Assembly: GCA_015068025.1 (NCBI GenBank)
Contig: SVLH01000007.1
Coordinates: forward strand, 1-56,846
Direction: 5' to 3'
From: Oscillospiraceae bacterium
GTDB lineage: Bacteria > Bacillota > Clostridia > Oscillospirales > Oscillospiraceae
Length of the DNA: 56,846 nucleotides
This document shows, in pieces, positions 49,894 to 56,001 of the stretch; positions within the stretch are counted from its first letter, which is position 1, and each line of letters opens with the position of its first letter. Under the pieces are notes generated by a model. It was not told where the DNA came from. It worked only from the letters and a program-made list of their open reading frames with translations, and did not search any database. A program made the position numbers and the translations under genes.

Positions 49894-51351
49894 TCAATTC
49901 CAGAAATCGGTTTTTTCCTTGATGCCAATGCGTTCCGCGTGGAACACCGGGTCTTTGCCACTGCGTCTCTGACGGGTGTAATCTTTCAGCGCATTCACAG
50001 CAGGCGTTGCCAGCAGCAAAATAGCAGGAATATTGGTGACCACCATCAATCCCTGCGTCAGATCGGCCATGTTCCAGACCAGATCCATGCCGGCGATGGC
50101 ACCGGCAAACACGATGACGGAAGCCACAATGCGGAAGCCGGTCATGAAGCCGCGGCTGGGCTGGCGCTTCAGGATAAAGCGGAGGCAGCCCTCACAGTAG
50201 TAATAGTTACCCAGCAGGGTGGTGAAGGCAAACAGGGACATGGACACCGCAATGAACACCGGGCCGATGGCGCCCAGAGAATTTTTCAGCGCCGCCTGCA
50301 CGAAGGGCGCGCCGGCCAGTTCTTTTGTCGGCACCACATCGGAGGTCAGGCACATGAAGGCCGTGGCGGTGCAGATCAGCAGGGTATCCAGAAACACGGA
50401 CAGCATCTGCACCAGACCCTGCTTGGCAGGATGGGAAACGTCGGCTTCGGCAGCGGCATTGGGGGCAGAGCCCATGCCGGCCTCATTGGAATACAGCCCC
50501 CGCTTGATGCCGTGCATCAGACAGGAACCGGAGAAACCGCCGAAAATGGCCTTGAAATCAAAGGCATTGGCAAAGATGGCGGTAAACATAGTGGGGACGC
50601 GCTGGATGTTCATCAAAACAATGATGACCGCCACCACAATATAGACGATGCCCATCGCAGGCACCATGATGCCGGTGACCTTGGCCAGCCGCTTGCCGCC
50701 GCCCATGATGCAGATCATAAACAGCACCGCCAGCACAGCGCCCATGATGGCAGGCGTTGTCGCCGCATCGTAGAAGCGGAAGCCGGTAAAAGTGGACTGC
50801 AGATTATAGGACGCCAGCGCGTTGTAGCCCACCGCGTAGGTCAGGATCACGAACACGGCAAACAGCACGCCCAGCCAGCGCTGGCGCAGGGCGGTTTCCA
50901 TGTAATAGGAAGGGCCGCCGTAGCTGGAGCCGTCGGGATTGCGACGCTTGTAGATCTGTGCCAGCGTGGACTCCACAAAGGCGGAGGCGCCGCCGAAGAT
51001 GGCAATAAACCACATCCAGAACACGGCGCCGGGGCCGCCCAGACAGATGGCCATGGACACACCCACGATATTGCCCGTACCCACACGGGAGGCGGTGGAG
51101 ATCATCAGCGCGCCGAAGGAGGACATGGCACCCTCGGTCTTCGGTTTTTCCATGACGACGCGAAGCGCCTCCTTCAGCATCCGCAGCTGGGGGAAGCCTG
51201 TCCGAACCGTCAGCACCACCCCGGCAACCACCAGAAACAGCGGCACCCAGGGATCGTAGAGAAAATCGCTGACAGTCAGCACAAGGCCGTTGATCGTTTT
51301 AATGAGGAAGTCGCCGACCGCCAGCACAAGCTCTTTGATCGTTTCAATCAT
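49894..51351 (-). CDS. Alanine/glycine:cation symporter (AGCS) family protein
   Basis: An amino-acid importer driven by Na+ or H+. About 485 residues from the ATG at 51351 (a GTG at 51360 is also open). Family blocks: MSSFGALMISTASRVGTGNI (about residue 75-94), AICLGGPGAVFWMWFIAIFG, YKRRNPDGSSYGGPSYYMET, HGIKRGLYSNEAGMGSAPNA and SMSLFAFTTLLGNYYYCEG. Near the N-terminus IKELVLAVGDFLIKTINGL and LVLTVSDFL look like a short tandem repeat preceding the first helix. It is divergent from the ssnA-ygfK unit across a 331-base gap; a link to amino acid or ammonia flow from purine breakdown is only inference. Confidence 0.9.
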   Translation of the reverse strand: MIETIKELVLAVGDFLIKTINGLVLTVSDFLYDPWVPLFLVVAGVVLTVRTGFPQLRMLKEALRVVMEKPKTEGAMSSFGALMISTASRVGTGNIVGVSMAICLGGPGAVFWMWFIAIFGGASAFVESTLAQIYKRRNPDGSSYGGPSYYMETALRQRWLGVLFAVFVILTYAVGYNALASYNLQSTFTGFRFYDAATTPAIMGAVLAVLFMICIMGGGKRLAKVTGIMVPAMGIVYIVVAVIIVLMNIQRVPTMFTAIFANAFDFKAIFGGFSGSCLMHGIKRGLYSNEAGMGSAPNAAAEADVSHPAKQGLVQMLSVFLDTLLICTATAFMCLTSDVVPTKELAGAPFVQAALKNSLGAIGPVFIAVSMSLFAFTTLLGNYYYCEGCLRFILKRQPSRGFMTGFRIVASVIVFAGAIAGMDLVWNMADLTQGLMVVTNIPAILLLATPAVNALKDYTRQRRSGKDPVFHAERIGIKEKTDFWN

Positions 51352-51396
51352 GTTTCTCACTCTCTTTCCGATTCATTTTTCAAAACACATCTGCGT

Positions 51397-51425
51397 GTTC
51401 TATCGAAATTCCGGCAAAAATGCAA
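51397..51425 (-). promoter_or_regulatory. Promoter of the AGCS gene
   Basis: Minus-strand -35 TTGCAT (51420-51425), -10 TAGAAC (51397-51402), 17-base spacer. Confidence 0.45.
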
Positions 51426-51493
51426 GAAAAATCGTTTACGCTCATGACGGCAAACTGTACAAATCCACCCTGAAAATTTTTCAGACCGCCTGC

Positions 51494-51522
51494 TTGCTTT
51501 TTTATCGGATTTCCTGTAAAAT
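51494..51522 (+). promoter_or_regulatory. Promoter of ssnA-ygfK
   Basis: -35 TTGCTT (51494-51499), -10 TAAAAT (51517-51522), 17-base spacer. It would start the transcript at about 51529, just before the structured leader at 51541. Confidence 0.6.
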
Positions 51523-51540
51523 ACGATATATAAATATAGA

Positions 51541-51646
51541 GAATGATAGCTGCAACGGAGTGCTGCGCGCACGGGCTTGACACCTATCATTCCCGCGCGC
51601 CGGTAGGTGTTTCGAACCGTAATGGTTTGAAGCGCCTTTTCTTTTT
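51541..51646 (+). ncRNA. Riboswitch-like leader of ssnA-ygfK with terminator
   Basis: Three mutually exclusive or stacked pairings are visible. First, GAATGATAG (51541-51549) pairs perfectly with CTATCATTC (51584-51592), closing a 34-base loop. Second, within that loop GCGCGC plus GGG (51565-51570, 51573-51575) is complementary to CCCGCGCGC (51592-51600), a possible pseudoknot. Third, ACACCTA (51580-51586) can pair with TAGGTGT (51604-51610). That would break the first helix and also the terminator, whose arms are GGTGTTTCGAACC (51606-51618) and GGTTTGAAGCGCC (51624-51636), all 13 pairs formed with wobble, then TTTTCTTTTT. This is the layout of a transcription-controlling riboswitch. It does not match the purine riboswitch core that I know, and I cannot assign a named class with confidence. 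Confidence 0.7.
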
Positions 51647-51691
51647 CCAAAAATCACTTCATAAACATATCCACATAAAGGAGGGCTCTGT

Positions 51692-53035
51692 ATGATCTTA
51701 CTGGCAAACGGCAGACTCATCACCCGCGATCCCGACGGCATTGGCTATCTCCCCGACGGCGGCGTTGTCACCGACGGCGGCAAGATCGTGGAGGTCGGTG
51801 TCACCGCCGAACTGAAAGCAAAATATCCGCAGGCCGAATTTGTAGACGCAAAGGGCGGCGTCATCATGCCCGGCCTCATCAATGCCCATACCCACATCTA
51901 CTCCGCCCTGGCACGGGGTCTTTCCATCAAGGGCTACAACGCCACCAACTTCTACGAAGTGCTGGACGGCCAGTGGTGGTACATGGATCGCCATCTGGAT
52001 CTGGCCGCCACCCGTGCCAGCGCACAGGCGCTGGTCATCGACTGCATCAAGCAGGGCGTCACCACCATCTTCGACCACCACGCCTCCTTCTGCCAGATCC
52101 CCGGCTCTTTGATGGAGATCGCCAACGTCACGAAGGAGTTCGGCATCCGCGCCAGCCTCTGCTATGAGGTCAGCGACCGTGACGGCGAGGAGAAGTCCAT
52201 CCAGTCCGTGCAGGAGAACAAGGACTTCATCGATTACTGCGAAAAGAACCCCAGCGACATGCTCAAGCCCATGTTCGGCGGACACGCCCTGTTCACCATC
52301 TCCGACAAGACTTTCGACCGCATGAATGCCGCCAACAACGGCCGGGTGGGCTTCCACATCCACGTATCCGAGGGCATGAACGATGTGTACGACTCCCTGC
52401 AGAACTACGGACGCCGCCCCGTGCAGCGTCTGCAGGATCACGGGATTCTGGGTGAAAAGACCATCCTCGGTCACTGCATCCATGTCAACACCGCCGAGAT
52501 GGATATCATCAAGGCCACGGACACGATGTGCGTCAACAATCCCGAATCCAACATGGGCAACGCCGTAGGCATCTCCCCCGTGCTGCAGCTTTACGCCAAA
52601 GGCATCCTGATCGGTCTGGGCACCGACGCCTATACCAACGACATGCTGGAATCCCTGAAGGTAGCCCTCTGCTCCCAGCGGCATAATGCCTGCCTTCCCA
52701 ACGTGGGCTGGTGTGAAGTCACGGATATGCTCTTTAAGAACAACGCCAAAATGGCCGCACGCTGCGGCTTCCCCCAGCTGGGCGTGCTGAAGGCCGGCGC
52801 CGCCGCCGACATCATCGTCATGGACTACAAGCCCTTCACCCCCTTCTCCGATGCCAACATCGACGGGCATATGCTCTTCGGCATGACCGGCCGCCAGTGT
52901 CAGACCACCATGGTGAACGGCAAAATTTTGATGCGTGACCGCATCCTGACCGAGATCGACGAAGAGGCCGTCAACGCAAAGATCCTGGAGGTGTCCAAGA
53001 GATTCTGGGGTACGCTGAACCACCGCGAATACTGA
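51692..53035 (+). CDS. ssnA: SsnA-type aminohydrolase (amidohydrolase superfamily)
   Basis: A 447-residue metal-dependent hydrolase. GVIMPGLINAHTHIYSALAR holds the HxH metal motif (about residue 66-71); further metal ligands lie in FHIHVSEGMNDVYDS, ILGHCIHVNT and GLGTDAYTNDML. The match to SsnA rather than to guanine deaminase comes from overall pattern (SIKGYNATNFYEVLDGQWWY) and from its partner ygfK. In gut anaerobes ssnA, ygfK, ygeW, ygeX, ygeY, hyuA and xdhD form a set used to break down urate and related purines. AAAGGAGGG lies 7 bases before the ATG. First gene after the structured leader; followed by ygfK after 14 bases. Confidence 0.88.
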   Translation: MILLANGRLITRDPDGIGYLPDGGVVTDGGKIVEVGVTAELKAKYPQAEFVDAKGGVIMPGLINAHTHIYSALARGLSIKGYNATNFYEVLDGQWWYMDRHLDLAATRASAQALVIDCIKQGVTTIFDHHASFCQIPGSLMEIANVTKEFGIRASLCYEVSDRDGEEKSIQSVQENKDFIDYCEKNPSDMLKPMFGGHALFTISDKTFDRMNAANNGRVGFHIHVSEGMNDVYDSLQNYGRRPVQRLQDHGILGEKTILGHCIHVNTAEMDIIKATDTMCVNNPESNMGNAVGISPVLQLYAKGILIGLGTDAYTNDMLESLKVALCSQRHNACLPNVGWCEVTDMLFKNNAKMAARCGFPQLGVLKAGAAADIIVMDYKPFTPFSDANIDGHMLFGMTGRQCQTTMVNGKILMRDRILTEIDEEAVNAKILEVSKRFWGTLNHREY

Positions 53036-53049
53036 GAGGAGGAAACACC

Positions 53050-56001
53050 ATGTCTGAACTGATGATTCCCATCCCGTTTCGGGAGTTAATGACCTGGATT
53101 ACCACCGAATATCAGAAAGAGGGCTCCGTCTTCGGCGTCCATAAACCCTATAAGGCAGGCACCAAGAAGCTTCCCATTTTCGGCGAATTTATCGAGACGC
53201 CCTTCGGCCCCGCCGCCGGTCCCAACACCCAGCTGGCCCAGAACATCATCGCCGGCTACTTCGGCGGCGCCCGTTTCTTCGAGCTGAAAACCGTGCAGAA
53301 GATGGACGGCGCCGAGCTGGCCGCCTGCATCTCTCGCCCCTGCATTCTGGCGGAGGACGAGTGCTACAACTGCGAGTGGTCCACCGAGCTGTACGTCCGG
53401 CAGGCCTTTGAGGAATACGTCAAGGCATGGTGCGCCTGCAAGATTATGGCAAAGGTCTACGGTCTGGGCGACCCCAACGGCTTCGTGTTCAATATGTCCG
53501 TGGGCTATGACCTTGCCGGCATCAAGGGCGAGAAGATCGACACCTATCTCAACGGCATGACAGATGCCTCCCAGACGCCCATCTTCAAGGAGTGCATCAA
53601 GGTCCTGAAAGAATTCTTCCCCGCCGAGAGCGCTTTTATCGACACCATCTCTCCCCGGGTGTCCGGCTCTGTCACCGTGTCCACCCTCCACGGCTGCCCG
53701 CCCGACGAGATCGAGCGCATCGCCTCCTATCTGATCAGCGAAAAGCACCTGCACACCTACGTCAAGTGCAATCCCACCATTCTCGGCTACGAGACCGCCC
53801 GTTCCATTCTGGACGGCATGGGCTACGATTACATCGCCTTCGACGACCACCACTTCAAGGAAGATCTGCAGTATGCCGATGCTGTTCCCATGTTCCGCCG
53901 CCTGCTGGCACTGGCCAGCGAGCACGGATTGGAATTCGGTTTGAAGCTCTCCAACACCTTCCCCGTGGATGTCAAGCAGGGCGAGCTGCCCAGCGAGGAG
54001 ATGTACATGGCCGGCAAGAGCCTCTATCCCCTCACCACCACCATGGCCGCCCGCATTGCCCGGGAGTTTGACGGCAAGCTGCGCATTTCCTACGCCGGCG
54101 GTGCGGACTTCTTCAACATCGACAAGCTGTTTGCCTGCGGCATCTGGCCCATTACGATGGCCACCACCGAACTGAAACCCGGCGGCTATCAGCGCTTCGT
54201 CCAGATCGGCGACAAGCTGGACGCCATGGACTTTAAGCCCTTCACCGGCGTGGATGTCACCGCCATCGAGGCGCTCTCTCTGGCCGCCAGAAGCGACAAA
54301 TACCACCTCAAGGACATCAAGCCGCTGCCCAGCCGCAAGCTGGCAGAAACCGTCCCTCTGGTGGACTGCTTCACCGCCCCCTGCAAGGGCGGCTGCCCCA
54401 TCGGTCAGGACATCCCCGAATACATCGAGCTGTGCCGCAAGGGCCGCTATGCCTCCGCCCTGCGTGTCATCATGAAGAAGAACCCCCTGCCCTTCATCAC
54501 CGGCACCATCTGCGCCCACAACTGCATGAGCAAATGCACCCGCAACTTCTACGATCAGCCGGTGAACATCCGCGCCACCAAGCTGGTGGCGGCAGAGCGG
54601 GGCTATGAGACGTATTTCAGCAAGATCACCAAGCCGGCTCCTGCCGAAACAAACGCCCGTGTCGCCGTCATTGGCGGCGGCCCTACAGGCATGGCGGCAG
54701 CCTATTTCGTGGCCCGCGCCGGCATCCCCGTCACTCTCTTTGAAAAGACCAACAACCTCGGCGGCATCGTCCGGCAGGTGATCCCCGCATGGCGCATCGG
54801 CGGCGAGGCCATTGACCGTGACGCTTCCTTCCTGTTCAAGCTGGGCGTGGAAGTAAAACTGAACACCCCCGCCCCCTCCGTAGCAGAATTAAAAGCCGTC
54901 GGCTACACCCACATCTTCTTCGCCGTGGGTGCCTGGAAAGCCGGACGGCTGGATATCCCCGGCAATGTCGTCTCCGTCATCGGCTGGCTGCGTGACCTGA
55001 AGGCCGGCAAGGAGGTTTCTCTGGGCCATGTGGCTGTGGTGGGCGGCGGCAACACCGCCATGGACGCTGCCCGTGCCGCCCTGCGTGCCGGCGCCAAGTC
55101 CTCCACGCTGGTCTATCGACGCACCAAAAAGTATATGCCCGCCGACGCCGAGGAACTGGAGCTGGCCATCGCCGACGGCGTGCAGTTCCTGGAACTGGTG
55201 GCTCCTGTGGAACAGAACGACGGCGTGCTGAAGTGTGAAAAGATGAAGCTGGGCGACGCGGATGAAAAGGGCCGCCGCATCCCCGTTGCCACGGGCGAGT
55301 TTGTGGAGATCCCCTGCGACACCGTGATCTCCGCCGTGGGCGAACAGGTGGACAGCGAGATTTTCACCGCCAACGGCATCGAGGTCAACGCAAAGGGCAT
55401 CCCCGCCTTCCGCACCAACCTTGAGGGCGTCTATGCTGGCGGCGACGCCATGCGCGGCCCCGCCACCGTGGTGGAGGGCATCGCCGACGCCACCTGGTTC
55501 GCCAACGCCGTCATCGGAGAGGCTCACAGCTTCAAGATCCCCGCCAGCGCCCTGCCCACCCGTGCCGAGGCCATCGCCAAAAAGGGCATCCTCTGCGAGA
55601 GTGCCAAATGCGAGGGCAATCGCTGCCTGAACTGCAATACCGTCTGTCAGGTCTGCGCCGACGTCTGCCCCAACCGGGCCAATGTGGTCATCGAGCTGCC
55701 CGACGGCCGCCATCAGATCCTGCATGTAGACCGGATGTGCAACGAGTGCGGCAACTGCGCCATCTTCTGCCCCTACGCCTCCGCCCCCTATCGTGACAAG
55801 TTCACCCTGTTCTTAAGCCGCGAGGGTTTTGACGAGAGCGTGAACAATTCCGGCTTCCTGCCGCTGGGCGGCAGGCGCGTGCTGGTTCGGCTGGACGGCA
55901 AGGTGGCTGAATATGATCTGGACGCCGCCAACGACCTGCCCGCCGACATCGAGGTCTTTGTCCTCACCGTTCTGACCAAGTACACCTATCTGCTGGGATA
56001 A
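53050..56001 (+). CDS. ygfK: YgfK: FAD/iron-sulfur oxidoreductase of the purine breakdown set
   Basis: A 983-residue multidomain protein. The first roughly 430 residues form a dihydropyrimidine/dihydroorotate dehydrogenase-like barrel (IETPFGPAAGPNTQLAQNII, VTVSTLHGCPPDEIERIASY, SYAGGADFFNIDKLFACGI). Next is a GltD-like iron-sulfur helical part (CFTAPCKGGCPIGQDIPEYI, then ICAHNCMSKC). An FAD site (VAVIGGGPTGMAAAYFVARA) and an NAD(P) site (VAVVGGGNTAMDAARAALRA) follow. The C-terminus has two ferredoxin-like clusters: CLNCNTVCQVCADVCPNRAN and CNECGNCAIFCPYASA. The old name selenate reductase subunit is not needed; the fit is to an electron-handling or reductive step in anaerobic purine use. AGGAGGAAACACC precedes the ATG. 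Last gene before its terminator; the other members of the set are not in this window. Confidence 0.93.
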   Translation: MSELMIPIPFRELMTWITTEYQKEGSVFGVHKPYKAGTKKLPIFGEFIETPFGPAAGPNTQLAQNIIAGYFGGARFFELKTVQKMDGAELAACISRPCILAEDECYNCEWSTELYVRQAFEEYVKAWCACKIMAKVYGLGDPNGFVFNMSVGYDLAGIKGEKIDTYLNGMTDASQTPIFKECIKVLKEFFPAESAFIDTISPRVSGSVTVSTLHGCPPDEIERIASYLISEKHLHTYVKCNPTILGYETARSILDGMGYDYIAFDDHHFKEDLQYADAVPMFRRLLALASEHGLEFGLKLSNTFPVDVKQGELPSEEMYMAGKSLYPLTTTMAARIAREFDGKLRISYAGGADFFNIDKLFACGIWPITMATTELKPGGYQRFVQIGDKLDAMDFKPFTGVDVTAIEALSLAARSDKYHLKDIKPLPSRKLAETVPLVDCFTAPCKGGCPIGQDIPEYIELCRKGRYASALRVIMKKNPLPFITGTICAHNCMSKCTRNFYDQPVNIRATKLVAAERGYETYFSKITKPAPAETNARVAVIGGGPTGMAAAYFVARAGIPVTLFEKTNNLGGIVRQVIPAWRIGGEAIDRDASFLFKLGVEVKLNTPAPSVAELKAVGYTHIFFAVGAWKAGRLDIPGNVVSVIGWLRDLKAGKEVSLGHVAVVGGGNTAMDAARAALRAGAKSSTLVYRRTKKYMPADAEELELAIADGVQFLELVAPVEQNDGVLKCEKMKLGDADEKGRRIPVATGEFVEIPCDTVISAVGEQVDSEIFTANGIEVNAKGIPAFRTNLEGVYAGGDAMRGPATVVEGIADATWFANAVIGEAHSFKIPASALPTRAEAIAKKGILCESAKCEGNRCLNCNTVCQVCADVCPNRANVVIELPDGRHQILHVDRMCNECGNCAIFCPYASAPYRDKFTLFLSREGFDESVNNSGFLPLGGRRVLVRLDGKVAEYDLDAANDLPADIEVFVLTVLTKYTYLLG

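Follow-up and report, generated by a model that had tools for sequence, protein, structure and literature searches.

The leader of ssnA and ygfK in the window (by which we mean the whole stretch of DNA analysed, 56,846 nucleotides of an Oscillospiraceae contig) carries a member of an already catalogued RNA family, ssnA RNA (RF03031), and the analysis presented here sharpens its mechanism into a testable form. As regards mechanism alone, this RNA is probably a ligand-activated (ON) riboswitch acting on transcription. That it is such a switch and has urate or yanthine (2,8-dioxopurine) as its ligand is, taken as a whole, a tentative proposal; more tentative still is the broader statement that ssnA RNA directly senses urate or yanthine and turns on the genes of anaerobic reductive urate breakdown via three platforms, each coupling the folded sensor to antitermination. 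We know of no ligand for ssnA RNA, and a direction (ON) with a short ligand list turns this orphan RNA into a simple experiment.

In the proposed mechanism (Table 1), the presence of ligand would lead the inner helix to displace the top of the outer helix; the strand so freed (51579-51588) would pair with 51602-51611 during passage of RNA polymerase; the terminator (51605-51637) would then form too late, and ssnA and ygfK would be transcribed. With ligand absent, the core would be unfolded and the terminator would form.

Table 1. Elements of the ssnA leader and the two genes behind it (window coordinates).
Feature	Position	Strand	Evidence or remark
ssnA RNA (RF03031), conserved sensor core with flanks	51540..51587	+	cmscan 54.9 bits, full model length
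Inner (sensor) helix	51548-51551 with 51574-51577	+	fifth family pair (8-39) is U/U here
Core hairpin	51560-51563 with 51569-51572	+	all cells paired in 61 and 70 distinct leaders
Outer helix, 9 bp, competes with inner helix	51541-51549 with 51584-51592	+	
Antiterminator helix, 10 pairs (two G-U)	51579-51588 with 51602-51611	+	
Intrinsic terminator	51605-51618 with 51624-51637, T-rich run to about 51646	+	
ssnA, aminohydrolase	51692..53035	+	NF005540 609.1 bits, TIGR03314 537.7 bits, both over cut-off
ygfK	53050..56001	+	TIGR03315 1300.4 bits, over cut-off

Family, genes and candidate ligands

The original prediction, made from the letters of the window, placed a transcription switch with overlapping pairings 5' of ssnA and ygfK, and allowed that it might belong to a motif class already described near ssnA. 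The analysis supports the former, and the Rfam covariance check bears out the latter: the RF03031 match (E 1.9e-12) lies over the gathering score of 37.3 bits and spans model positions 1-48 of 48. The Rfam entry is a cis-regulatory element whose name is taken from its gene. The window forms eight of the nine model pairs, position 8-39 being U with U (Rfam position p is window 51539 + p). A permissive Rfam search of 51300-51900 returned three further families, each far under its gathering score (E at least 1.8), and the models of the xanthine riboswitch (NMT1) and of the purine riboswitch gave no match in this interval at E up to 10; the standard purine aptamer was thus not matched, in line with the original prediction. 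Elsewhere in the window, at 890-1014 on the minus strand, lies a ribosomal protein L10 leader (RF00557; 64.5 bits, gathering score 44).

RF03031 matched 110 of 400 genomes in the family sample (103 over cut-off), 18 of 394 in the order sample at E <= 0.001 (16 over cut-off; one, L018, judged unrelated) and 6 of 391 in the class sample, where the window alone was over cut-off. Our own model, R1, found one match in 291 genomes outside the family, the window itself. A scan of named genomes with the core pattern gave at least 119 stretches, those listed being mostly from Oscillospiraceae, Oscillibacter, Flavonifractor, Intestinimonas, Gemmiger and uncultured Clostridia. The leader set comprises 181 distinct leaders collected via the core pattern, so that the core letters are partly conserved by construction, and 180 after removal of L101, judged unrelated by eye; L072, L081 and L238 were left out for short flanks, and the covariance-model matches L018, L020-L024, L240 and L242 were judged unrelated by eye. 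Tandem ssnA RNAs, about 170 nt apart, were seen in L015 (which contains L019's match) and L038 (Gemmiger sp. An194, L078, and An87, L038).

Among the 400 genomes of one sample, 127 encode SsnA over cut-off and 101 of these have the motif, while in 6 genomes the motif occurs in the absence of a full SsnA. For 25 of the 26 SsnA genomes lacking the motif, the region upstream of ssnA was examined, as 26 loci (L243-L268); the genome left out, G819, has a weak match (L241) that carries the core upstream of ssnA. Twenty of the 26 loci, L259 included, had no Rfam match at E up to 0.5, and R1, run on all 26, returned only L259 plus one insignificant match, the former by construction since alignment A4, a hand-picked 71, includes it. 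L259 holds on its minus strand (166-213), upstream of ssnA, a strongly diverged ssnA RNA that was spotted by eye; it keeps all nine core pairs and differs from the commonest pair at six. The lack of a significant RNA model match upstream of the other ssnA genes in these loci suggests that they are controlled otherwise.

Urate and yanthine would lead the list of candidate ligands on the strength of gene function, since YgfK and SsnA act on yanthine made from urate: the two proteins jointly convert yanthine, the product of XdhD acting on uric acid (PMC12507026). The urate link drawn in the original prediction is strengthened by this 2025 biochemistry. ygfK and ssnA are also among the uric-acid-induced genes common to distant gut bacteria (PMC12990295, a commentary), an induction that concerns other organisms, neither this genus nor ssnA RNA. 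The source genome (71.3% complete) has a single copy of the motif and also encodes a selenium-dependent xanthine dehydrogenase, YgeY and D-hydantoinase, each over cut-off, so that the reductive urate pathway may well be present.

The ON mechanism might instead serve another ligand. Candidates are xanthine or guanine, an intermediate from further along the pathway, or a cofactor containing molybdenum or selenium. The wider gene set has links to both elements: L082 has a selenium-dependent xanthine dehydrogenase close to ssnA, and in L046 a MocA/YgfJ-like protein, scoring below the family cut-off, follows the hydantoinase at some distance. A few copies of the RNA stand directly before other genes, namely D-hydantoinase in L046, a two-gene electron-transfer unit in L070 (L220 and L237 resemble it) and, in L139, a DUF6198/YczE-like membrane protein under the YczE model cut-off, L117 having in this place a short frame with a similar start. 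The commonest targets, however, are the two yanthine enzymes: SsnA comes first, starting within about 450 nt downstream of the motif, in 172 of 180 leaders (of the remaining eight, L060 and L127 are cut by the locus end), and ygfK is next in all 64 loci having at least 2.6 kb of sequence, with YgeY behind it in L109. Switches that activate breakdown genes usually sense the substrate, which again speaks against a different ligand; we consider this reading possible but rather unlikely.

Open-licence papers did not yield the phrase 'ssnA RNA', and none of those naming both ssna and riboswitch seems to be about this RNA; 'ssnA' was not found in the main text of PMC7266159, PMC7373994, PMC10043782, PMC8632094 or PMC11109978, nor 'riboswitch' in PMC12507026. 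The pathway of the genes behind ssnA RNA was worked out biochemically in 2025, with yanthine identified as an intermediate, and bears on gut uric acid and gout (PMC12507026, PMC12990295). Should ssnA RNA prove to respond to urate or yanthine, it would lend itself naturally as a sensor part for detecting uric acid. To our knowledge, no RNA for yanthine has been described before, so that a sensor of this purine would be the first.

The core and the outer helix

What is conserved in the 180 leaders is a unit made of the inner helix (positions 8-12/35-39) and the hairpin (21-24/30-33), separated by an asymmetric internal loop, one strand of which is mostly G-N-A-A-C-G-N-A and the other G. Of the 181 leaders, 180 form pairs 9-38 and 10-37, the former as A-U, G-U, G-C or U-A, and 136 form pair 8-39. 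The outer helix was scored as present where six contiguous pairs extend outward from position 10, the partner strand lying 3-9 nt behind the core. By this criterion 96 of 180 leaders have it (window type, below), whereas shuffles average 8.6 and never exceed 16; the other 84 lack it and retain the core.

The original prediction had taken the 9-bp outer helix for the closing helix of the sensor. The helix exists in the window, but it overlaps the core's own closing helix at 51548-51549; since the two share bases, both cannot form fully. As the sensor's own stem it is rejected, on account of these shared bases and of its absence from 84 of 180 leaders, and it probably belongs instead to the switching apparatus of one leader group.

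The pairing of the core was evaluated in alignments A1 and A2, which hold 131 distinct 48-mers from the 155 leaders of common core length (25 cores one base longer were excluded). In 61 distinct leaders without outer helix, 95.1% of cells are paired and there are 14 two-sided changes (shuffled mean 5.3); in 70 with it, 97.8% and 11 (shuffled mean 1.3). Neither count was reached in 500 shuffles, which do not keep the relatedness of the leaders. Sliding the structure by 1 to 3 columns in the 61 leaders gave 16-19 two-sided cells versus 14 for the true structure, with only 28.6-33.0% of cells paired and covariation scores of 0.035-0.064 versus 0.166. When all pairs were scanned for covariation under a tree-based null, none was significant: in the core alignment the best was 24-30 in the hairpin (E = 0.4), and the window-type alignment gave nothing below 0.8. 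Covariation thus appears to lend the core moderate support.

Among the helices proposed for such a check in relatives, the outer helix, terminator and antiterminator recur in the window-type leaders; the GC-rich pseudoknot does not. GC-only complementarity of at least 5 bp between core and linker is present in only 3 of the 96 window-type leaders (the window, L107 and L133), and the pseudoknot is rejected as a conserved element. The GC-rich core-linker pairing itself, approximately 51563-51575 with 51592-51601, would unfold the sensor; in these three leaders it is perhaps a local anti-sensor, perhaps a chance feature.

Expression platforms and the probable direction of switching

In the window, as had been predicted, an intrinsic terminator with a T-run stands in the leader, and an antiterminator arm overlaps both it and the 9-bp helix. 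The scan found no second terminator-like site in 51361-51691 (shuffles mean 0.3), TTTCTTTTT follows the stem, and the antiterminator shares 51584-51588 with the outer helix and 51605-51611 with the terminator. A simple scan of the same interval for a sigma-70-type promoter found none. The fold of the leader (51535-51650) beats 200 of 200 shuffles (z = -4.17); its minimum-energy form combines the terminator with the GC-rich core-linker pairing and corresponds to neither switch state.

Three arrangements couple the core to a terminator. In the first, that of the window, the outer helix and terminator of 89 leaders, taken together, show pairing in 91.2% of cells, with 121 two-sided cells where shuffles average 38.6, the grouping being defined by the outer helix so that its six inner pairs are paired by construction; the two-sided changes are mostly in the terminator, and a further outer pair is present in just 32 of the 89. 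This alignment (A3) holds 89 of 91 leaders, L129 and L131 being left out for length. The antiterminator averages 7.9 bp versus 5.2 in shuffles and, in 85 of 91 leaders, shares bases with outer helix and terminator alike. Its two registers, ACACCUAUC with GAUAGGUGU and CACUC with GAGUG, argue for selection on the pairing itself. Counts for the antiterminator and for energetics refer to the 91 of 96 window-type leaders that had a usable terminator in the first scan, a scan that overlooked stems separated from the T-run by a gap and put the terminator inside the core for L035, L085, L122 and L143; some stems, such as those of the first copies in L015 and L038, escaped a second scan as well.

In the second, direct arrangement, the terminator stem itself uses at least four core bases, as in 29 of the 84 leaders without outer helix. 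The pairing of core with terminator beats all 200 shuffles in 21 of these 29 and is in the top 5% in 26, the 29 having been chosen for strong core pairing; a fairer count is 27 of the 72 terminator-bearing leaders without outer helix (26/29 plus 1/43). Where the terminator is separate, the top 5% is reached by 4 of 93 window-type leaders and by 1 of the 43 leaders without outer helix. With a terminator built of core bases, folded core and terminator are mutually exclusive, so that folding should allow transcription. The second copies of the tandem RNAs in L015 and L038 have a terminator stem of core bases, and the first copies seem alike.

In the third, adjacent arrangement, examined in 30 of the 43 remaining leaders with a terminator, a strand immediately 3' of the inner helix, whose start lies at 39-42 in 23 of these 30, pairs around the 5' arm of the terminator, with a mean of 8.6 bp versus 6.1, the overlap with the terminator arm following largely from the stretch searched. 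The scan found no terminator in 12 of the 84 leaders without outer helix. Five leaders in which it found none (L032, L067, L082, L104 and L135) have a ribosome-binding site close behind, and their ssnA RNAs might act at translation. All three platforms would fit one logic: in each the folded sensor should hinder termination, from which we infer an ON switch.

The energetics of this coupling were computed with pairs enforced, the probability of the antiterminator being taken before the 3' arm of the terminator is made. Enforcing the core raised the antiterminator in 77 of 91 window-type leaders; it then exceeded 0.5 in 79 of the 91, its mean going from 0.61 to 0.80, whereas enforcing the outer helix lowered it in 88 of 91. 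Since the unconstrained mean is already 0.61, many of these leaders are computed to be partly open by default, and for them an OFF default is not clear. Once complete, the terminator prevails whether the core is folded or not, and any control would have to be kinetic. Under enforcement of the core, 84 of 91 leaders favour the antiterminator over what remains of the outer helix; the reverse holds in seven, including the window, whose antiterminator rises from 0.00 to no more than 0.24 because seven outer pairs can persist (0.75). The core costs 10 kcal/mol in the window versus a mean of 4.0, and the hand-drawn window states at this stage, -17.0 (core and antiterminator) and -14.9 (outer helix and hairpin), lie close together but well above the free ensemble (-28.6), in which other pairings, among them the GC-rich one, prevail. 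The overlapping pairings of sensor and platform thus appear clear in the window and its relatives, while the switching computed for the window copy is weak, and the direction suggested for the window rests mainly on the relatives.

This weakness would suit an OFF switch, in which the ligand would stabilise the 9-bp outer helix as a closing stem, withholding the antiterminator strand and letting the terminator form: outer helix and antiterminator strand do overlap, the window keeps its seven outer pairs with a folded core and its antiterminator stays low, and the xanthine/urate riboswitch NMT1 is an OFF switch (PMC7373994). Such a reading has to contend, however, with the 84 of 180 leaders that keep the core and have no outer helix, with the core-base terminator in 29 of those, which it does not explain, and with the 84 of 91 leaders in which enforcing the core lets the antiterminator outcompete the remaining outer helix; we judge it improbable. 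Nor is it likely that the core is bound by an antiterminator protein instead of a small molecule: a small hairpin with an internal loop that excludes a terminator does resemble the RNA targets of BglG/LicT-type proteins, but the core has no above-chance match to another Rfam family.

Comparison with known systems

The proposed ON switch can be set beside several leader RNAs. The purine (guanine/adenine) riboswitch is a leader RNA for purine-related genes built as a three-way junction, unlike the ssnA core with its one hairpin and internal loop, and its Rfam model gives no match. BglG/LicT-type ribonucleic antiterminators are small imperfect hairpins that overlap a terminator and permit transcription by folding; the ssnA core resembles them in general architecture. 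The xanthine riboswitch (NMT1), with no Rfam match here, is likewise a leader RNA of purine oxidation genes and binds xanthine and uric acid, but it turns genes off, likely at translation, and was described from Proteobacteria (PMC7373994). To ssnA RNA (RF03031) the likeness is a full-length match over the gathering score in an ssnA gene context; the Rfam model comprises the inner helix and hairpin only, and the outer helix, antiterminator, terminator and alternative platforms described here lie outside it.
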